Part shown: positions 20,578 through 33,315 of the stretch, piece by piece
How positions within the stretch are numbered: position 1 is the stretch's first letter
Layout of the letters: every line of letters begins with the position of its first letter
Virus record (IMG/VR): IMGVR_UViG_3300046170_000175
Location: 1 to 36,910 of that record
Strand: one strand, 5' to 3'
DNA: 36,910 bases
From: a virus
Translations under genes and position numbers: made by a program
Notes under the pieces: generated by a model
What the model was told of the DNA's origin: nothing
Seen by the model: only the letters and a program-made list of their open reading frames with translations
The model's database searches: none

Positions 20578-20607
20578 AAGTCGTTGAGCATCAGCATACT
20601 ATGGACA
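20578..20607 (+). repeat. direct repeat copy 1: AAGTCGTTGA-N8-ATACTATGGACA
   Basis: The two-part motif recurs at 20785-20812 with a 6-base spacer. The 12-base part ATACTATGGACA recurs a third time at 25152-25163, beyond the far end of the ATPase/VWA cassette. Confidence 0.6.
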
Positions 20608-25070: not shown

Positions 25071-25085
25071 CAACCCGACAATCCA

Positions 25086-25117
25086 AGCTCACACTCTTCG
25101 GGGTGTGGGCTTTTTTT
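25086..25117 (+). terminator. strong rho-independent terminator with UUCG loop
   Basis: An 11-bp stem (AGCTCACACTC / GGGTGTGGGCT, two G-U pairs) is capped by UUCG and followed by seven T. It closes the ATPase/VWA/lysin cassette. Confidence 0.85.
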
Positions 25118-25195: not shown

Positions 25196-25224
25196 TTGAC
25201 ACCCTTTTGCAAATTTGCAAACCT
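25196..25224 (+). promoter_or_regulatory. candidate promoter (TTGACA) for the tmRNA-like RNA and early operon
   Basis: A perfect TTGACA at 25196-25201. With 17-base spacing the -10 would be the poor AAACCT at 25219-25224, placing the start at about 25231, right before the RNA's 5' end. A weak -10 covered by a palindrome suggests activation or repression by a regulator. Confidence 0.35.
25206..25221. promoter_or_regulatory. 16-bp perfect palindrome TTTGCAAATTTGCAAA, candidate operator
   Basis: Two adjacent copies of the palindrome TTTGCAAA form a larger perfect palindrome between the TTGACA and the tmRNA-like gene. Its core matches the palindrome at 20307-20318 in front of the late operon. 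Confidence 0.5.
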
Positions 25225-25234
25225 GTTGATCGTG

Positions 25235-25300
25235 GGGGATGAAAGGTTATCGACTTGGCTTCGGTCAAGGACGGAGGTTCGATTCCTCCCATCTCCACCA
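25235..25300 (+). ncRNA. 66-nt tmRNA-like (tRNA-like domain only) RNA
   Basis: Acceptor stem GGGGATG (25235-25241) pairs with CATCTCC (25290-25296), followed by discriminator A and an encoded CCA. The third pair is G-U, the alanine identity pair of tRNA-Ala and tmRNA. A D-loop without stem (AAAGGTTATCGA) resembles the tmRNA GG..UCGAC segment. A 6-bp hairpin, CTTGGC-TTCG-GTCAAG, stands where tmRNA has helix P2 and its whole message domain. Then come GAC and a perfect T-arm (GGAGG, loop TTCGATT, CCTCC). The layout GGAC plus T-arm plus CUCCACCA is that of tmRNA 3' ends. There is no anticodon arm and no tag frame. It lies 29 bases before the first early gene. Confidence 0.75.
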
Positions 25301-25329
25301 ACCAATAACCAATAGCAAACCGTAAAAAT

Positions 25330-25503
25330 ATGAATACAGAAAAACTAATCCAATACATTAACGACTGGGCGGATCAATCCGAGAGGCAAGCCTACAAGTG
25401 GAGTGCCGATGGGTATTTTAACGAAGCCTTCAAGGCTCAATTGATTGCTGACTTCTTGAGGGAAGACCTCGTGAAGGGTATCAAGAATGACTTAGTCAAG
25501 TAA
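25330..25503 (+). CDS. 57-aa hypothetical early protein
   Basis: Frame from ATG 25330 to TAA 25501, reading MNTEKLIQYINDWADQ and ending VKGIKNDLVK, helical and charged. It is preceded by an A-rich leader with two ACCAATA elements and followed by three more. First protein gene of the early block, and unrecognised. Confidence 0.6.
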   Translation: MNTEKLIQYINDWADQSERQAYKWSADGYFNEAFKAQLIADFLREDLVKGIKNDLVK

Positions 25504-25535
25504 CCAATAACCAATAACCAATAAATAAAAATACA

Positions 25536-26105
25536 ATGAATAAGCTAGTAAAAAAAATCGCTGAACACTGCAACTGGGAAGTTAATATGGCAGACCTAGA
25601 GGGTCACGATACCGAGGAAGCCAAGTGGCGTTCTCATGTTGCGAGACAAATCCTAAGCATGATCAACTTGGATGAGATAGAGAATCCCTACTACACCATT
25701 AGGTATTACTTTAAGGATGATCCAGAATCCATTCGTGAGGCTGAAGTGTGTGTGGGTGGCGATGAGGATTATCAAGATGATGACAACATCTTCTTCTACT
25801 TTGATAGCATCTTTAGCCTTCATTCTCTTTATGTTGCAGGAGAGAAAACAATGGAGGAGTTCGTTGTCGTAAACTACTGGAGTGTAGACGAAGAGGACTT
25901 CGACAGGGACATGAAGGATGAATGGGTCACCGTTCTCAACAGGGATGTGGTTAATGAGACCGCACAAAGCAAACACGCATTGGGTCGAAAGATCACCGAT
26001 GCAGAATGGAGATCAATCTCTAATCAAGTTCATCGAGAGGGTGCTGGCTTTGAGGGGGCTTGGGCAATCGCCATTGAGTTCATCAAACAAATAACCGACA
26101 AATAA
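25536..26105 (+). CDS. hypothetical early protein, 189 aa
   Basis: Acidic protein with no recognised family: an N-terminal helix (VKKIAEHCNWEVNMADLEGHD), an Asp-rich middle (GGDEDYQDDDNIFFYFD) and a C-terminal helix. The leader carries three CCAATA repeats instead of a Shine-Dalgarno. Early position suggests host take-over or replication support, without further evidence. Confidence 0.65.
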   Translation: MNKLVKKIAEHCNWEVNMADLEGHDTEEAKWRSHVARQILSMINLDEIENPYYTIRYYFKDDPESIREAEVCVGGDEDYQDDDNIFFYFDSIFSLHSLYVAGEKTMEEFVVVNYWSVDEEDFDRDMKDEWVTVLNRDVVNETAQSKHALGRKITDAEWRSISNQVHREGAGFEGAWAIAIEFIKQITDK

Positions 26106-26118
26106 AAGGAGGCATACC

Positions 26119-26529
26119 ATGGACTACACAAAAGAAGCCATCATTGGCACAACAAAACTAGTCAGCATTCGTTTATTTGTGGAGGGTGATGTTACTGATC
26201 ACTCGCAAATTATCGACTTCGACAAACTGGAGATTGGTAGCTTATCAATTGATAAGGATGGTAGGGAATACTGGTGCGATACCCATGTCATTGGTGCTTC
26301 CTATGATAAACGAAACAATGAAACCCAAGTTACTCTGGAGCTATTTGATAATCCAGAGGATTGCCCAGAAAGTAAGCAGGACTTAACGGAGGAGGACTTG
26401 TTCTCTGCCCCAGAGTTCTACCTGTGGTGGGAATGCATGGAAGAACCAATGGAGATAACAATGCTCGCAGAAAAGGGCATTGACAGTTCTTCCACTTCCA
26501 GAACAATTCACACAATCAAACTAAACTAA
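26119..26529 (+). CDS. hypothetical early protein, 136 aa
   Basis: Acidic, mixed alpha/beta sequence, unrecognised (for example REYWCDTHVIGASYDKRN and PEFYLWWECMEEP). It has the clearest Shine-Dalgarno of the region, AAGGAGG, 7 bases before the ATG, unlike its A-rich-leader neighbours. Confidence 0.65.
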   Translation: MDYTKEAIIGTTKLVSIRLFVEGDVTDHSQIIDFDKLEIGSLSIDKDGREYWCDTHVIGASYDKRNNETQVTLELFDNPEDCPESKQDLTEEDLFSAPEFYLWWECMEEPMEITMLAEKGIDSSSTSRTIHTIKLN

Positions 26530-26538
26530 TAAAAAAAT

Positions 26539-26706
26539 ATGGATAACGAACAAAAATACACGCTACAAATACTTAATCAGCTTCTAGAGGAAGTATTCGA
26601 TATAGAGTTTGAAGCTAGACCTAAACACCTTCAAAACATTGTTGAAGAAGCCGAAGACCTTTTAATAGCTAAAGGTATTCGTTACAGAACACCAACAAAT
26701 ATCTAA
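26539..26706 (+). CDS. 55-aa hypothetical protein
   Basis: Frame from ATG 26539 to TAA 26704, reading MDNEQKYTLQILNQLLEE and ending RTPTNI, helical and acidic. Nine bases separate it from the previous stop, with only an A-run as leader. Unrecognised. Confidence 0.55.
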   Translation: MDNEQKYTLQILNQLLEEVFDIEFEARPKHLQNIVEEAEDLLIAKGIRYRTPTNI

Positions 26707-26728
26707 ACCAAAAAATATCTAAAAAAAT

Positions 26729-27154
26729 ATGAAATACGAAATACAAGTTCACGACATCCAGTTCTCAATGATTGACGAGGATGGAAACGAGTTACCGAAC
26801 AAGGATGGTTCGCCAAAACTCTTTACTCTTAATCCTAAATGCGATGCTAGCTGGATAGCTGATTCAATGCAAGCTGATTGGCTTGAGGAATGGGAACATG
26901 ATATTGCCCCCAAGAGCAAGGGTTATTCAATGCAGGAGACTATGGAGTTCGTTCGTGACCACTACTTACAGTGGGAGCTAATCGGACATCATACGGATCA
27001 CGATGCCTACTTGGAGTTTCACAACTACAGGAACGCTACGCACTTCTGCTGTTATCCCCATGCGGATGAGAATTCTCTCATTGAGGGCATTCACTTCATC
27101 ATGGATATGCACTACCGCAATAAAGCGGAGGAGGAAGCTCATGCTAGCCTTTAA
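26729..27154 (+). CDS. hypothetical early protein, 141 aa
   Basis: Unrecognised. It contains a His/Cys-rich segment near residues 85-112 (IGHHTDHDAYLEFHNY, then HFCCYPHAD) that could bind metal. A-rich leader. Its end overlaps the replication-protein gene by 14 bases and provides that gene's GGAGGA ribosome-binding site. Confidence 0.65.
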   Translation: MKYEIQVHDIQFSMIDEDGNELPNKDGSPKLFTLNPKCDASWIADSMQADWLEEWEHDIAPKSKGYSMQETMEFVRDHYLQWELIGHHTDHDAYLEFHNYRNATHFCCYPHADENSLIEGIHFIMDMHYRNKAEEEAHASL

Positions 27155-27557
27155 TGAAAGCCAAGCGATTAAATATGGACTCAAGGAAGCAATCATTCTT
27201 CACAAGGTTATCTTCTATATCCTACTCAACCGCAAGGAGGACAGGAATCTTCGCAATGGGAGACACTGGACATTTAACCCAAGAGATAAGTGGAGAGAGA
27301 TTTTCCCAATGTTTTCTAAGCATCAGATATGGAGATCATTCAAAAGCCTTGAGGAACAGGGTGCTTTGGTCACTGACTCGTTCAATCGCATGGCTTATGA
27401 CAAAACCACTTGGTATAGCCTTTCGGATGCGATGCTCAAAGAGTGCCTTGCGGATGAATACTGGAAGAAAGCCATTTACAAAAGTGTGAAACCCGTTTAC
27501 AAAAATGCAAAACCAATACCATTAAACAAAAAAATTATACAAGTTAATCCATATTAA
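27141..27557 (+). CDS. winged-helix phage replication protein, 138 aa
   Basis: The start ATG 27141 is chosen over 27003 because GGAGGAGG lies 7 bases upstream and similarity starts at once (FNESQAIKYGLKEAIILHKVIF). The sequence GRHWTFNPRDKWREIFPMFSKHQIWRSFKSLEEQGAL is the DnaD/replication-initiator-type winged helix common in phages, where a helicase loader or origin binder is encoded near the helicase. The C-terminus is Lys/Pro-rich and short, without a DnaD tail. Role inferred. Confidence 0.65.
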   Translation: MLAFNESQAIKYGLKEAIILHKVIFYILLNRKEDRNLRNGRHWTFNPRDKWREIFPMFSKHQIWRSFKSLEEQGALVTDSFNRMAYDKTTWYSLSDAMLKECLADEYWKKAIYKSVKPVYKNAKPIPLNKKIIQVNPY

Positions 27558-27559
27558 TT

Positions 27560-27736
27560 ATGAATACAGATCAGACAGAAGCCCAACAAGAGCGTATACA
27601 AACGAGGATTGAAATGATTCGCACTGAATCCAGAATCCTTTCCTACAAGATAGAGCGAATGGAACAGCAACGCCATCAGCTACAGGAAGAGAAAAGAAAA
27701 CTCAAAGAGGTATTGGATTCGGAGGTTTCCAAATGA
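27560..27736 (+). CDS. 58-aa coiled-coil protein
   Basis: Frame from ATG 27560 to TGA 27734, which overlaps the nuclease gene as ATGA. Heptad-like, charged (ERIQTRIEMIRTESRIL ... MEQQRHQLQEEKRKLKEV). Probably a small oligomeric partner; no family recognised. Confidence 0.6.
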   Translation: MNTDQTEAQQERIQTRIEMIRTESRILSYKIERMEQQRHQLQEEKRKLKEVLDSEVSK

Positions 27737-28488
27737 GTCACTTCTACGATTGCTCCAATGATCCATTCCTCACCAAAGCAGGAACACCATCTCAAGCCAA
27801 AAAGGTCGGTGCTTTTCCGTCTGTAACCACAGTGATGGGAATCATCAAAGACCCCTTCTTGGATGGGACTTGGTCGCCAAATAAATTCGTTGAGCTAGCT
27901 CGTGAAAACGAAGATTGGGACATGGAAGAAATCAAGAGGCGTAAGTTTGGTATGCGGGAATCCCCCATTGATGGCTCTGAAATAACAGCATCGGAGTTCG
28001 GGACGACAGTTCACGGAAGGCTGGAGAAGCACATCAATGACATGATCGATGGCAGAAAGCCCAAGCTGGACACTGTGTGGGACGAGTGGGCTGAACCCTT
28101 CCTCAAGCACCTTGTTGATAATCAGATTGAACCCATCAAGGCAGAGATGATTGCGTGGGATGATGAGATAAAGGTGGCTGGTAGCGTGGACTTCGTTGGT
28201 AAAATGCCAGACGGCAAATATTATATGGCTGACTACAAGTGCAGGGACTGCAAGGGTCGTGGTGGAAAGTTCTACGAGAAGAAGGACTGCACCCAACTGG
28301 CTATCGAAAGTTGGATGCTGGCTAGAATGTGGGAGCTAGAATATCTTCCGTGGATTACAAGCGTCTGCATAGACATCGGCACGAAGAAACATTACCACAA
28401 GGAGTGGAGTTGGAAGCAGATGCAGAAGGGTATCGAACGCTTCAAGCTAACTGCGGAAATATACTGGATGGACTTCATGAACCCCTAG
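27733..28488 (+). CDS. PD-(D/E)XK (RecB/Cas4-type) exonuclease, 251 aa
   Basis: The residues fit the family: FPSVTTVMG at the start, GTTVHGRLEKH (about 88-98) as the first helix motif, then VAGSVDFVG (Asp as first metal ligand), YYMADYKCRD (D-x-K core), and KDCTQLAIESWMLA (conserved Gln helix). Such phage nucleases resect double-stranded ends and pair with annealing proteins. Erf is encoded two genes downstream. One GAGCTAGCTC copy lies inside. Confidence 0.75.
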   Translation: MSHFYDCSNDPFLTKAGTPSQAKKVGAFPSVTTVMGIIKDPFLDGTWSPNKFVELARENEDWDMEEIKRRKFGMRESPIDGSEITASEFGTTVHGRLEKHINDMIDGRKPKLDTVWDEWAEPFLKHLVDNQIEPIKAEMIAWDDEIKVAGSVDFVGKMPDGKYYMADYKCRDCKGRGGKFYEKKDCTQLAIESWMLARMWELEYLPWITSVCIDIGTKKHYHKEWSWKQMQKGIERFKLTAEIYWMDFMNP

Positions 28489-28489
28489 T

Positions 28490-28759
28490 ATGAATGCTTA
28501 TCTCTTAAAGTATACTCATGGCGATGGGGATACTGTTTTCTATTGCTGGAAGATAGCCAAGGACGAAAAGACAGCGTTCAAGTTTGCATTCGGAGTTTCT
28601 CAAAAAAAGAATCAAACACAAATATCTACCAAGCGTGGACTAAAAATTAAATTAATCGAAATCGAATCCCATGAAGTATCTGAAGCATTCCCAATTAGCC
28701 CAGTATCGAAAAAAGAACCTACCAAAGAAGTGTCCAATAATGGAGAATGGATGCTCTAA
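28490..28759 (+). CDS. hypothetical protein, 89 aa
   Basis: Begins MNAYLLKYTHGDGDTVFYCW and looks like a small beta-alpha protein with a Lys-rich middle and a low-complexity end. It starts 2 bases after the nuclease stop and overlaps the endonuclease VII frame by 89 bases. Unrecognised. Confidence 0.6.
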   Translation: MNAYLLKYTHGDGDTVFYCWKIAKDEKTAFKFAFGVSQKKNQTQISTKRGLKIKLIEIESHEVSEAFPISPVSKKEPTKEVSNNGEWML

Positions 28760-29114
28760 TCCCTGCGTGGATCACAACCACACAAGTGGCATGGTGCGTG
28801 GTGTTATATCCATGGAGGGCAATACTTTTTTGGGTCGTGTGGAAAATAGTTTCCGAAGGTTTGGGACAAGCTCCGATGTGGGTCTCGCAAGGATACTGAG
28901 AAACATGGCTGACTACTTGGATCAAGGTGACACGGAATACCTTCATCCAGTTGGATTGCGTCAGCTAGCTTCTAGGTTTAAGAGGTTAGTCGTTGGTGAT
29001 CAAGAGTTTGCACTAAAAAAGATGGGTGCAAAAAAAAGTGAAATAAAAGCTTGCACTAACTCAAAGCAGAGGACAGCATTGTATCGAAAGTTAATTACTA
29101 ATTATGGAAAATAA
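28671..29114 (+). CDS. endonuclease VII-like resolvase, 147 aa
   Basis: CPIMENGC, then CVDHNHTSGMVRGVI is the HNH/treble-clef core of recombination endonuclease VII, which cuts Holliday junctions and branched DNA before packaging. The following LGRVENSFRRFG and LARILRNMADYLD segments match phage relatives. The second Cys pair of T4 Endo VII is absent (SMEGNT stands there), as in a subset of podoviral members. The true start may be downstream of 28671, since the first residues overlap the previous gene. Confidence 0.7.
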   Translation: MKYLKHSQLAQYRKKNLPKKCPIMENGCSNPCVDHNHTSGMVRGVISMEGNTFLGRVENSFRRFGTSSDVGLARILRNMADYLDQGDTEYLHPVGLRQLASRFKRLVVGDQEFALKKMGAKKSEIKACTNSKQRTALYRKLITNYGK

Positions 29115-29550
29115 AAACATACTACAAGAAATCCAATCGGAACTCAAAGCTCCGAAGGGTCAACGCAATAACTTCGGCAACTACAATTATCGTAGTGCTG
29201 AAGATATTTTAGAAGCAGTGAAGCCACTACTCAAGAAGCACAACTGTGCATTGGTTATCAATGATGAGGTGCTTGAGGTGGGTGGTCGAGTTTATGTAAA
29301 GGCTACAGCTATGTTGGCTTTTGAAAGTCAGCCATTCGCAAGTGCCTCTGCATTTGCTCGTGAGGCAGAAAACAAGAAGGGTATGGACGAGGCTCAGATC
29401 ACTGGATCGGCTAGCTCATACGCTCGTAAGTATGCACTGAATGGCTTGCTAGCTATTGACGATACGAAGGATGCTGACTTCACAAATCGTCACGGCAAAG
29501 ATTCTCCAGCTACCAAGAAGGTGGCTAAAACTAATAACGAACTAATATAG
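29104..29550 (+). CDS. erf: Erf-family single-strand annealing protein, 148 aa
   Basis: NFGNYNYRSAEDILEAVKPLL near the N-terminus, then ASAFAREAENKKGMDEAQITGSA and SSYARKYALNGLLAIDDTKDAD, are the hallmark segments of the Erf family. The protein anneals single strands during phage recombination or genome circularisation. A short Lys-rich tail follows. Together with the PD-(D/E)XK nuclease and endonuclease VII it forms a recombination set. Confidence 0.85.
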   Translation: MENKNILQEIQSELKAPKGQRNNFGNYNYRSAEDILEAVKPLLKKHNCALVINDEVLEVGGRVYVKATAMLAFESQPFASASAFAREAENKKGMDEAQITGSASSYARKYALNGLLAIDDTKDADFTNRHGKDSPATKKVAKTNNELI

Positions 29551-29560
29551 GAGGTAAAAG

Positions 29561-29791
29561 ATGAGTAATGTAACTCAAGAGTATGACAATACCAACAAAG
29601 GTGCGATGTTTAAAAACGATCGCAAAGAAAAAGAGACTCACCCAGACTTGGGTGGAACTCTTAATGTTGGTGGAACTGACTACTACATTAACGCTTGGAA
29701 AAAAGAATCCAAGAAGGGTGTGCCATTCTACTCCATTTCCGTAAAGGAAAAGGTAGCCAAAGAAGTGGTCAAATCCGAAGAGCCATTTTAA
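29561..29791 (+). CDS. DUF736-like small protein, 76 aa
   Basis: LGGTLNVGGTDYYINAWKKESKKGVPFYSISVKEK follows the pattern of the DUF736-type small beta proteins found next to phage recombination genes, possibly single-strand DNA binding. The Shine-Dalgarno AGGAGG is clear. It is the last gene before a terminator. Confidence 0.7.
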   Translation: MSNVTQEYDNTNKGAMFKNDRKEKETHPDLGGTLNVGGTDYYINAWKKESKKGVPFYSISVKEKVAKEVVKSEEPF

Positions 29792-29814
29792 TGTAGTGTT
29801 AGTCGCATAAATAA

Positions 29815-29862
29815 GGGAGGATGGGAGTTTTTAGTATTTGGTCTCCTGTCCTCCCTTTTTTT
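29815..29862 (+). terminator. rho-independent terminator after the recombination genes
   Basis: GGGAGGA (29815-29821) pairs with TCCTCCC (29849-29855). An inner GGAG/CTCC extension and an AT-rich loop lie between them, and seven T follow. It separates the block ending with the DUF736-like gene from the helicase block. Confidence 0.85.
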
Positions 29863-29887
29863 ATCAAAACCAAATAAAAATATAAAA

Positions 29888-30253
29888 ATGATTACTTCAG
29901 AAAATAATACAAACAAGCTACCAGATAGCGGTAGCAGAACGAGCTTCTCCACTGGTGCAGTGCGGGACGCTATGGAGGGGAAGGGTTTTCCATCCATGAT
30001 TCCAACTTGTGCATTAAAATCAATGGCAAAACGCTTTGAGGATGGTGCAAGTAAATACGGCAAGGACAACTGGAAAAAGGGTATACCCCTGTCTCGCTAT
30101 TGTGATGCCGCTAATCGACACCTCTGGGCATTGCGTGATGGAATGACTGACGAGGATCACTTTGGTGCTGTCCTTTGGAACATAGCCTGCTGGCAGAAAA
30201 CCAAAAGAATGATTGACAGTCATCTCCTACCAGAAGAACTTAACGACCTATAA
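29888..30253 (+). CDS. dATP/dGTP diphosphohydrolase-like protein (DUF5664/PF18909 type), 121 aa
   Basis: SMIPTCALKSMAKRFEDGASKYGKDNWKKGIPLSRYCDAANRH and the later MTDEDHFGAVLWNIACW carry the Glu, Asp and His positions of this all-helical, MazG-like family. Family members in Z-genome phages hydrolyse dGTP or dATP to shift nucleotide pools. No PurZ or DNA polymerase is seen here, so general dNTP control is more likely. It begins after the terminator with an A-rich leader. Confidence 0.7.
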   Translation: MITSENNTNKLPDSGSRTSFSTGAVRDAMEGKGFPSMIPTCALKSMAKRFEDGASKYGKDNWKKGIPLSRYCDAANRHLWALRDGMTDEDHFGAVLWNIACWQKTKRMIDSHLLPEELNDL

Positions 30254-30255
30254 TT

Positions 30256-30591
30256 ATGGATTACATAGATCAATATCAAGATGCTCGTATAAACAAGTTT
30301 TCCACAAGCGAAGATAAGAAAGCTAGGGAAAATTTTTATGAGGGAACTAGGAAAGACATCCAGTGGGCGAAGAATAACTCGCTGATTCGTGAGATGAGTT
30401 TCGAGGATTACCTAGAGGTTAACAACAGACCATACAGTGAAATAACTCCAGAAATGCGTAAGGTTATTTTATCCGATCTGAACATACCAACTTGGATTCT
30501 AGCTCAATATTATGAGCTAGCTCCATCGACTGTCACAAACCTTCGCAGGAAATCAAGGGTGAAGGCTAAGGAAGAGGGAACAAAATGCTAA
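30256..30591 (+). CDS. putative DNA-binding protein, 111 aa
   Basis: Charged N-terminus. The C-terminal 40 residues (ILSDLNIPTWILAQYYELAPSTVTNLRRKSRV) look like a helix-turn-helix. It starts 2 bases after the previous stop and overlaps the helicase gene start. A possible early regulator or replication accessory. One GAGCTAGCTC copy lies inside the helix-turn-helix codons. Confidence 0.55.
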   Translation: MDYIDQYQDARINKFSTSEDKKARENFYEGTRKDIQWAKNNSLIREMSFEDYLEVNNRPYSEITPEMRKVILSDLNIPTWILAQYYELAPSTVTNLRRKSRVKAKEEGTKC

Positions 30592-31934
30592 TGGAATTAT
30601 CCGACAGCATACCTCAATCCCAGAGTTTCTATAGCTCCGAGGCAGAGAGAAGCGTGATCGCTAGCATTGTATCCGAATCAGATGGAGGCGTGTATGATGA
30701 CCTAGCTAGCATTATAACGGAGGATGATTTTTATGAATCCGCCAATCGTGAAGTGTTCAAGGCTGTGGGTCGTCTGGTAAACCAGAAGACTACCATCGAT
30801 GAAGTTACATTGAGTGACGAGCTAAGGTCATCCAACAAGCTTGATCAAGTGGGGGGCATGGGATACATCTTTAAGATAATGGATGCTCCTTGCACACCAC
30901 TGTCTGGAATGTCATCGGCAAAAATTGTTCGCAAGCATAGCCAGTCTCGCAAGCTAGCTCGGCATTATAGGTTACAGTTGGAGTGCTTGACAGAGAACCA
31001 GTCTCCATCGGATGTAGCAACAAAGTCAGAAACCGAGATACGAAGTATCATGGACTCCGTTGATACCAAGAAGGAGACTCTCAAGGATTCCGCAGAGGAA
31101 TTGAGAACTCGACTCAACAGTATGTATGATGGGACTTACCAGTGCAAAAAAATACCCACTGGTATCGATCACTTGGATGACAAGCTAGATGAGGGTGGCA
31201 TAGGCAAGGGGGAGGTCTGCGTGATAGCAGCACCAACGAGTTGCGGTAAATCGCAGTTGGCTCTGAACTTTGTTCTCCGTAACTCCATCGTGGACAATAT
31301 TCCAAGCTGTATATTCAGCTTTGAAATGCCAGCTAATCAGCTAACCAAGAGAATGGCACAAACATCATCCTGCATTAACTTGGGTAGATATAAGGATGCC
31401 ATGGTCACAACGGAGCAAAGGGAGAAGGTGGATGAAGCGATTACCAAGATAGGTAAAGCACCCATATATACCGAACACAGTGTTCGTGGTATCGATGATC
31501 TTCGATCAAAAGCCAGACGCATGAAGCGTAGGCATGGTATCGAAATCGTTGTCGTGGACTATCTGCAACTCATTCCTTTTAAATCCAATCTTAGCAAGCA
31601 TGAAGGAATATCGCAGGCATCACATGGCATCAAGCAGATGGCTATGGAGTTGGATGTAGCAGTTATTCTATTGGTGCAAGTCAATCGTACTGGTGCTATG
31701 AGGGACTCTGGCTTGGTTCTGTATGACCTAAAGGACTCTGGGGACATTGAGAATGATGCGGATATTGCATTGCTTATGTGGCCTCGTGGTGGAAGCGTTG
31801 ACCACTGTCGTGAGACTGATGCCAATGGCGTTTCTTACCTAGCGATGGACTACAATGTAGCCAAGAATCGTGAGGGTGAGCGTGACCTGCATGGGACATT
31901 CACATTCCTCAACCACATAGGAAGGTTTCAATAA
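30585..31934 (+). CDS. dnaB: replicative DNA helicase, DnaB family, 449 aa
   Basis: The N-terminal helical domain (SEAERSVIASIVSE ... VFKAVGRLVNQKTTIDEVTLSDEL) and the RecA-like core with GIDHLDDKLDEGGIGKGE, Walker A APTSCGKS (about residues 216-223), Walker B IVVVDYLQL, and ILLVQVNRTGAMRDSG are in the expected order and length. It unwinds DNA at the fork as a hexamer. No separate primase or polymerase gene is seen, so host proteins must complete the replisome. The next gene overlaps as TAATG. Confidence 0.9.
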   Translation: MLMELSDSIPQSQSFYSSEAERSVIASIVSESDGGVYDDLASIITEDDFYESANREVFKAVGRLVNQKTTIDEVTLSDELRSSNKLDQVGGMGYIFKIMDAPCTPLSGMSSAKIVRKHSQSRKLARHYRLQLECLTENQSPSDVATKSETEIRSIMDSVDTKKETLKDSAEELRTRLNSMYDGTYQCKKIPTGIDHLDDKLDEGGIGKGEVCVIAAPTSCGKSQLALNFVLRNSIVDNIPSCIFSFEMPANQLTKRMAQTSSCINLGRYKDAMVTTEQREKVDEAITKIGKAPIYTEHSVRGIDDLRSKARRMKRRHGIEIVVVDYLQLIPFKSNLSKHEGISQASHGIKQMAMELDVAVILLVQVNRTGAMRDSGLVLYDLKDSGDIENDADIALLMWPRGGSVDHCRETDANGVSYLAMDYNVAKNREGERDLHGTFTFLNHIGRFQ

Positions 31935-32176
31935 TGAAAAACAAAATGGAAGGTAACGATTGGCACTTCCCCGAAGCGGGGTTGGATTACCATGACCGCC
32001 TTGAGCAGGAGGTAACTCGACTCAAGCGGGACATTATCCAGCTAGAAACACAGCTAACAGTGACTCAATCCAAGCTGAAAGTTTCCGAAAGGGAAAACGA
32101 CTTATTGACAATGGACATTCAACAGTTGCATCAAGCGATTGCTGTCCTTAACGATGAACCCACTAACTCGCTATAA
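31934..32176 (+). CDS. coiled-coil protein, 80 aa
   Basis: Residues about 18-70 form a clear heptad pattern (LEQEVTRLKRDIIQLETQLT ... LLTMDIQQLHQAIAVL). Coupled to the helicase gene through TAATG. Unrecognised; perhaps a small structural or adaptor protein of the replication block. Confidence 0.6.
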   Translation: MKNKMEGNDWHFPEAGLDYHDRLEQEVTRLKRDIIQLETQLTVTQSKLKVSERENDLLTMDIQQLHQAIAVLNDEPTNSL

Positions 32177-32204
32177 GCAATACAACAACAAACCAAAAAT
32201 AATA

Positions 32205-32393
32205 ATGTCAGAAGATCAATTATTCAAAGCAGATACAGAGAAAGTCCTCGTAAGGGGTCTCAACGCTATGACCAAGGCTTGCGATGCCTTGACTAAGCAG
32301 AATGAAATCCTCAATGAGGATATTGAGAAGATGAAAAACAAGATACTTAGGTTGCAGGACAAAATCCTCGTCAACCAAGAGTCCAAGGAGTAG
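32205..32393 (+). CDS. 62-aa coiled-coil protein
   Basis: The ATG at 32205 (MSEDQLFKADTEKVL) follows an ACCAAAAATAATA leader and is preferred to 32139, which lies in the previous gene. Helical with heptads (ILNEDIEKMKNKILRLQDKIL). A TTGACA follows the stop at once. Confidence 0.6.
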   Translation: MSEDQLFKADTEKVLVRGLNAMTKACDALTKQNEILNEDIEKMKNKILRLQDKILVNQESKE

Positions 32394-32405
32394 TTGACAA
32401 ACTCC

Positions 32406-32419
32406 TTGTTTTTAAACAA
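32406..32419. promoter_or_regulatory. inverted repeat TTGTTT-TT-AAACAA
   Basis: A 6-bp inverted repeat around TT, just upstream of the extended -10 at 32424, where an operator or activator site would sit. Confidence 0.3.
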
Positions 32420-32423
32420 TTTG

Positions 32424-32432
32424 TGTTATAAT
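32424..32432 (+). promoter_or_regulatory. extended -10 promoter TGTTATAAT giving a near-leaderless message
   Basis: Perfect TATAAT with the upstream TG. Eight bases separate it from the ATG at 32441, so the start site would fall on or just before the start codon. A TTGACA at 32394 is 27 bases from the -10, too far for a normal -35. Confidence 0.55.
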
Positions 32433-32440
32433 TAGCACCT

Positions 32441-32665
32441 ATGCCTAGAAACTACAGAAAAGAATACGATAATTACCAGAGCAAGCCAGAACAGCGAAAA
32501 AGAAATGATGCCCGAAAGAAGTCCAGACGCAAGATGGTGAAAGCCGTTGGAAAGTCCAAGCTCAAGGGCAAAGATATAGATCACAAAGATCGCAACCCTC
32601 GCAATACCTCTCGTAAAAATCTTCGTATTCAAACAAAAAAGAAAAATCGTTCTAGGAATGGATAA
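32441..32665 (+). CDS. small HNH-like basic protein, 74 aa
   Basis: Lys/Arg-rich. The segment KGKDIDHKDRNPRNTSRKNLRI has the D-H...N...N layout of compact HNH motifs, as in small phage proteins beginning MPRNYRKEYDNY. It may nick DNA or be a degenerate nuclease. It has its own near-leaderless promoter and no Shine-Dalgarno. Confidence 0.7.
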   Translation: MPRNYRKEYDNYQSKPEQRKRNDARKKSRRKMVKAVGKSKLKGKDIDHKDRNPRNTSRKNLRIQTKKKNRSRNG

Positions 32666-32748
32666 TCTATCGGTAAGCCAGTTAAGTAATTGCTGGCGGG
32701 TGGTCATTAATCGTTATTCCTCCTTATTTAATTCCGATATTACTAAGT

Positions 32749-32787
32749 CCTCGCCCCTCTTTTGGTTGGGGGGTGAGGCATTTTTTT
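32749..32787 (+). terminator. rho-independent terminator after the early block
   Basis: CCTCGCCCC pairs with GGGGTGAGG (one G-U), loop of about 12, then CA and seven T. The rest of 32666-32748 holds only a weak GCCAG...CTGGC hairpin. Confidence 0.85.
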
Positions 32788-32790
32788 GTT

Positions 32791-33315
32791 ATGGGTAAAG
32801 ATTGGTCACAGGATGAAAGAGCTTGGAAGATGGGGCAAGATGTGGAGTCCAGCCGTTTCCGAAGGGTTATGTCCTTCATTGATCCCAACCCCAGAGAGGC
32901 ATCCAGAGAGGAACAATTTGAACACATTGATTATCACACTGTCATTGGGACTGTTGATGTGAAAGCCATGAAGCGAGTAACTCGATCTGGCAAAAGACAA
33001 ACTAGATTCCTATGGGTGGAGTTCAGAAATGTAGCTGGTATGAATGGATGGCTATATGGCAAGCAGGACTGGATGGCTTTTGAGAAGCGAGATGGGTTTC
33101 TCTTTGTCAGAAGAGAGGACTTGAAAGAACTGGCTATCGAACTCTGCGATACGGATACCTATGTGGATAATGCTAGGGACGCCCTCTACAAGGTTTACTC
33201 CCGAAAGGATGCGGATGATGTAATTGCGATGATCAAGTATTCTGACTTGGATCGTATACCCAGCTTATTTATCAAAGACCCAGACTACGAAGAGGAATCT
33301 ACTCCTTTTCTCTAA
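32791..33315 (+). CDS. hypothetical protein, 174 aa
   Basis: The start ATG 32791 (MGKDWSQDERAWKMGQD) is chosen because the earlier GTG at 32773 lies inside the terminator stem. No ribosome-binding site is visible; the ATG comes 3 bases after the T-run. The protein is mixed alpha/beta with a WVEFRNVAGMNGWLYGKQDW core and is unrecognised. It overlaps the end of the giant virion gene by 17 bases, tail to tail. Confidence 0.7.
   Translation: MGKDWSQDERAWKMGQDVESSRFRRVMSFIDPNPREASREEQFEHIDYHTVIGTVDVKAMKRVTRSGKRQTRFLWVEFRNVAGMNGWLYGKQDWMAFEKRDGFLFVRREDLKELAIELCDTDTYVDNARDALYKVYSRKDADDVIAMIKYSDLDRIPSLFIKDPDYEEESTPFL

Follow-up and report, generated by a model that had tools for sequence, protein, structure and literature searches.

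What is a short viral RNA that carries the acceptor end of a transfer-messenger RNA (tmRNA) and no message, and what could it do in an infected cell? The question is raised by a 66-nt RNA encoded on the + strand of IMG/VR virus record IMGVR_UViG_3300046170_000175, of which positions 1 to 36,910 (36,910 nt, hereafter the window) were analysed. The RNA is a tmRNA tRNA-like domain (TLD) in which a small hairpin takes the place of the message domain, and similar TLD-only RNAs recur in viral contigs. The reading favoured here, with a probability of about 0.6 and drawn from sequence comparison, is that the RNA would act in trans, early in infection, as an alanine-charged competitor of trans-translation that depends on the SmpB of the host.

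Architecture of the 66-nt RNA

The RNA reads GGGGAUG AAAGGUUAUCGA CUUGGC UUCG GUCAAG GAC GGAGG UUCGAUU CCUCC CAUCUCC A CCA (coordinates in Table 1). Its TLD is complete, with a 7-bp acceptor stem GGGGAUG/CAUCUCC that includes G3-U70, the discriminator A73, an encoded CCA and a T-arm. The D-region AAAGGUUAUCGA forms no D-stem and GGAC precedes the T-arm, both being tmRNA-type features. Between the D-region and GAC lies only a 16-nt hairpin, P2, whose 6 bp (CUUGGC/GUCAAG) are capped by UUCG, and the acceptor stem, T-stem and P2 display no mismatched pair. The RNA thus resembles one-piece tmRNA (ssrA, RF00023) in its acceptor G3-U70, A73, stemless D-loop, GGAC and T-arm. In contrast, the pseudoknots, resume codon, tag and stop codon are all absent (approximately 300 nt fewer than in tmRNA), and the 4-nt loop that closes P2 holds no tag reading frame. 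Since the message domain is absent, the window RNA is not a functional tmRNA. D-stem and anticodon arm are also absent, and ARAGORN called neither a tRNA nor a tmRNA. An earlier note, made from the letters of this DNA, had described a G-U third acceptor pair, discriminator A, CCA, a stemless D-loop, GGAC and a T-arm; every one of these elements is present, and the claim of a 66-nt tmRNA TLD whose message part is replaced by a UUCG hairpin is upheld by Rfam scoring, synteny and covariation.

The covariance-model comparison proposed in that note was run with cmscan against Rfam, where the whole RNA matches the tmRNA model RF00023 at 59.2 bits (cut-off 47, E 6.9e-21); the 66 nt reach both ends of the model, positions 1 and 374, with the middle deleted. 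The per-genome search gave the same match at E 1.6e-24. At curated cut-offs the window contains no other Rfam match. A permuted (two-piece) tmRNA was rejected, given the normal order of the pieces and 17.4 bits against a cut-off of 47 for RF04321. The mascRNA/menRNA model (RF01684) also stays under its cut-off (17.2 bits against 42.5); these are likewise small tRNA-like RNAs with no anticodon arm but are eukaryotic and lack the tmRNA D-loop.

Conservation among relatives and across phages

The relative L338, whose Erf protein is 88% identical to that of the window and whose RNA region displays approximately 73% DNA identity, carries a syntenic RNA, GGGGAUG CAUGGUAUCGA UCUGAU UUCG GUCAGA GAC GGAGG UUCGAUU CCUCC CAUCUCC ACCA. 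The UUCG loop, T-arm and acceptor are identical to those of the window RNA. The compensatory changes that the earlier note had proposed to look for in relatives are found in P2, where pairing survives two single substitutions and two double ones (C-G to U-A and U-A to C-G). A second relative, L337 (Erf 90% identical), retains the block upstream of the RNA within its positions 1-130 and lacks the RNA itself, thus representing an empty site. DNA resembling ssrA does occur in phages that use this gene as their integration site, and the locus could on that ground be an attP remnant of a host ssrA or a decaying tmRNA. The true att fragments (L261, L262 and L265), however, comprise only the 3′ part of the gene and adjoin an integrase, whereas the window TLD keeps both acceptor strands with no mismatched pair, and relatives differ by compensatory changes. 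The degenerate att site of a host ssrA, considered in the earlier note, is therefore scarcely credible.

Pattern scans of IMG/VR returned at least 140 distinct TLD-only RNAs (65–88 nt) besides that of the window, in at least 185 viral contigs, some of which may represent the same virus population. Representative contig RNAs exceed the RF00023 cut-off. The gap in length between 65–88 nt and 349–444 nt is not evidential, since the scan patterns fix the short distance in viral contigs, and hits with an unfitting D-region, which are the 3′ ends of full-length tmRNAs (e.g. L142, L273 and L312), were discarded. Among the matches listed, all 141 distinct RNAs, the window RNA included, have G1-C72, G2-C71, G3-U70 and A73, and CCA is encoded in 51 of them. 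A scan that fixed none of these positions returned G3-U70 together with A73 in 85 of 85 distinct RNAs, again among the matches listed. Pairs were counted from parsed segments; MAFFT on mixed lengths misplaces the 5′ acceptor strand. Free covariation is displayed by acceptor pairs 4-69, 5-68 and 6-67, by T-stem pairs 1-3 and by P2 pairs 2-7, with five pair types at 4-69 and six at 5-68 over the 141 listed RNAs. P2 pairs 2-5 are formed in 77-84 of 84 diverse members, as compared with shuffled means of 35-39, and pairing of P2 was not demanded by the filter, which partly demanded pairing of the acceptor and T-stem. A scan that did not ask for a D-loop returned the signature GG..(T/A)(C/T/A)GAC in nearly all true members among the matches listed. 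In the first scans TCGAC and GGAC were part of the patterns, and their conservation there was left out of account. The invariant identity set and the tmRNA-type D-loop thus indicate that the RNA is selected as an alanine acceptor of the tmRNA type.

The invariant alanine identity, and the frequency of TLDs within phage tRNA arrays, would also suit an alanine donor that works free of SmpB, or a decoy for alanyl-tRNA synthetase (AlaRS), for EF-Tu or for defences that cut tRNA. Charging alone, however, would be possible with many mini-tRNA shapes, and the tmRNA-specific D-loop is nonetheless kept, which makes such a role quite unlikely.

TLD-only RNAs are also present in six isolated phages, LuckySocke, GiJojo, pSt2308, BRock and Shaeky of Streptomyces, all five with the RNA inside a tRNA array, and phiPsal1 of Pontimonas. 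Five of the six records hold no annotation at the RNA and the sixth a hypothetical-protein call. In the longer forms (approximately 80 nt) P2 is interrupted by an inner loop and ends in a small hairpin, and inspection of the loops by eye for tiny reading frames revealed no conserved stop codon. Gene neighbours compared across lineages include no partner gene in common. A 123.6-kb phage contig (G008, the contig of L034) carries both a TLD-only RNA (46486-46567) and a full-length tmRNA (77588-77979), the tag of which, as called by ARAGORN, looks doubtful. Vibrio phage D239 (L259, 2471-2541) has in a tRNA array a TLD-like RNA of 71 nt; its D-loop is divergent, and the RNA does not reach the RF00023 cut-off. 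Outside viral contigs, TLD-only RNAs were observed in the cyanobacterial genomes L148, L223, L424 and L426; in L148 and L223 the RNA is 84 nt long and adjoins ordinary chromosomal genes, both of the two cyanobacterial genomes checked also contain a full-length tmRNA, and the pattern matched in 3 of 42 genomes of that cyanobacterial order.

Placement and surroundings of the RNA

In 15 RNA-bearing relatives the gene order lysin-exonuclease-endonuclease VII-Erf-DnaB is colinear where visible, and the RNA occupies at least four places of that order, in every case on the strand of the early genes. It is found before the lysin gene (L251, L253), between the lysin and exonuclease genes (window), before the exonuclease gene (L130, L396, L399, L404), between the exonuclease and endonuclease VII genes (L250, L256, L257) and after the DnaB gene (L061, L076, L110, L129). 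In the window the RNA comes first after a promoter-like block, and the early genes follow it. This arrangement fits a cis element of the early operon, either a leader structure or a tRNA-like processing signal (the latter raised in the earlier note), that RNase P and RNase Z would cleave. In contrast, the place of the RNA varies between relatives and extends beyond the helicase gene, L337 has the block and no RNA behind it, many large phages hold the RNA within tRNA arrays, and an invariant G3-U70 is left unexplained by such a signal. A cis element is therefore very unlikely, and the shifting place fits trans-acting cargo.

The conservation and position of the block at 25196..25224 suggest that it is a promoter; a sigma-70 consensus scan called no promoter there. 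The motif TACTATGGACA recurs in intergenic DNA at window positions 20600, 20805 and 25156, is conserved upstream of the RNA in L338, and may represent an operator or second promoter. Repeats of ACCAATAACCAATA precede start codons at 25301-25315 and 25503-25525 with no clear Shine-Dalgarno sequence, thus hinting at a Bacteroidota-like host. Ten window proteins are without a Pfam match, and a blastn comparison of the 2-kb region with isolated phages gave no match. Matches to RAGATH-24 RNA occur in two relatives of the window phage (L359, 1552-1752; L373, 1267-1337).

Table 1. Coordinates of the RNA, its parts and neighbouring features in the window.
Feature	Position	Strand	Basis
Intrinsic terminator of the preceding operon	25085..25112	+	12-bp stem and T-run; chance alone predicts about 0.8 such terminators in this region
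Promoter-like block TTGACA-17 nt-AAACCT, separated from the RNA by 10 nt	25196..25224	+	conserved in L338 and L337
TLD-only tmRNA-like RNA, 66 nt including the encoded CCA	25235..25300	+	RF00023 match, relatives, covariation
Acceptor stem, 5′ strand GGGGATG; G3 (25237) pairs with U70 (25294)	25235..25241	+	sequence
D-region AAAGGTTATCGA, stemless, tmRNA type	25242..25253	+	sequence; signature recovered in the scan not requiring a D-loop
P2 hairpin CTTGGC-TTCG-GTCAAG in place of the message domain	25254..25269	+	compensatory changes in L338; covariation
T-arm GGAGG-TTCGATT-CCTCC	25273..25289	+	sequence; T-stem pairs 1-3 covary
Acceptor stem, 3′ strand CATCTCC, discriminator A (25297) and CCA (25298-25300)	25290..25300	+	sequence
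Early/replication genes: exonuclease, endonuclease VII, Erf, DnaB-like helicase	25536..33315	+ (strand of the RNA)	PHROGs matches

Possible action on host ribosome rescue

The RNA of phage DS6A (Mycobacterium) is described as little more than a TLD, and a molecule similar to it is reported to inhibit tmRNA strongly in E. coli (PMC4131195 and PMC11915505, which both cite Mao et al. 2009), whether or not the molecule is chargeable and perhaps through SmpB titration (PMC4131195). Compared by description only, the window RNA agrees with the DS6A kind in its complete TLD, with little else and no tag frame; it differs in its P2, a 6-bp UUCG hairpin, and in heading an early operon. Reduced tmRNAs of the same layout are reported from Mallomonadaceae plastids (approximately 65 bp and devoid of a coding sequence) and from mitochondria, where message-less tmRNAs coexist with an imported SmpB (PMC11915505). 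These organellar RNAs are descendants of a resident tmRNA, in contrast to the phage cargo of the window. The full-length or permuted tmRNAs of Stenotrophomonas phages DLP_6 and Moby and of Synechococcus phage S-CRM01 are phage-borne ssrA derivatives as well, but the message part is kept; the permuted tmRNAs in L260 (S-CRM01), L329 (DLP_6) and L330 (Moby) are unannotated in their records. The kind is already known from DS6A, and the window RNA is a further member of a hardly populated kind. What is new is the breadth, the covariation, the invariant alanine identity and the patchy, mobile placement; a search of the open-licence literature revealed no account of a wider occurrence than in DS6A and two plastid sequences.

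In the favoured mechanism, transcription of the RNA would be driven early in infection by the conserved block immediately upstream, and the transcript would be processed to a form ending in CCA and alanylated by host AlaRS through G3-U70. Host SmpB and EF-Tu would then bind the charged RNA and bring it to ribosomes that have stalled on truncated mRNA. Binding of SmpB is suggested by the D-loop, and neither the window nor any of 34 phage records contains an SmpB gene, so the RNA would have to use the SmpB of the host. Without a resume codon or a stop codon, trans-translation could not be completed, and the RNA would thus compete with the tmRNA of the host for SmpB and for stalled ribosomes. During infection, tagging would be suppressed, along with the breakdown of mRNA and nascent proteins that is coupled to it. 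The competition with host trans-translation put forward in the earlier note has a direct precedent in the reported inhibition by a DS6A-type RNA (PMC4131195 and PMC11915505), and phages probably use TLD-only RNAs to jam or divert host ribosome rescue.

Several observations weigh against the RNA being a charged competitor of trans-translation. The minimum-energy fold of the naked window RNA (-27.9 kcal/mol) is more stable than the TLD (-23.9 kcal/mol) and has only the acceptor stem in common with it. When 12 relatives were folded in the same manner, six gave the TLD exactly as their minimum-energy fold, and the alternative folds differ among themselves; the TLD fold is favoured because comparative evidence, not energy, decides. 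The RNA is also patchy, being found by the Rfam scan in 1 of 31 relatives selected by Erf. It is absent from the close relative L337, and phage C75C1, the nearest isolate by terminase (71% identical), has no RF00023 match; the RNA is thus not needed for the life cycle. Furthermore, an inhibition that is independent of charging, as described in the DS6A literature, would not by itself select an invariant G3-U70, which hints at a larger part for charging than simple titration would leave it.

It is on this last point that a tag-less rescue has to be weighed, in which the alanyl-TLD enters the stalled ribosome with SmpB and EF-Tu and takes over the nascent chain, and the complex dissolves untagged by drop-off and peptidyl-tRNA hydrolysis. 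The RNA would then help the phage to recover ribosomes and incomplete proteins and would not jam rescue. We know of no ribosome-releasing step for such a route. The invariant alanine identity set, which SmpB titration alone would not demand, nonetheless agrees with it, as does the persistence of TLD-only plastid tmRNAs and of message-less mitochondrial tmRNAs, the latter with imported SmpB (PMC11915505). In contrast, the sole functional report known on such a molecule is one of tmRNA inhibition. Tag-less rescue is thus improbable, and stays a serious rival because the invariant G3-U70 exceeds what simple titration explains.

Beyond the window, it is tentatively proposed that TLD-only RNAs are a common and repeatedly gained phage RNA class, selected for bringing alanine, together with host SmpB and EF-Tu, into stalled ribosomes; the resulting tag-less or poisoned rescue would counter mRNA-cutting defences of the host or protein tagging. 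The single published phage example, DS6A, looked like a curiosity, and the present data point to a widespread class, mostly overlooked in ordinary phage annotation and labelled as plain tmRNA by Rfam. The invariant G3-U70 indicates selection for alanine charging; this speaks against a role purely in SmpB titration and raises the question of how a message-less, alanine-charged TLD acts at a stalled ribosome and how phages benefit from it.
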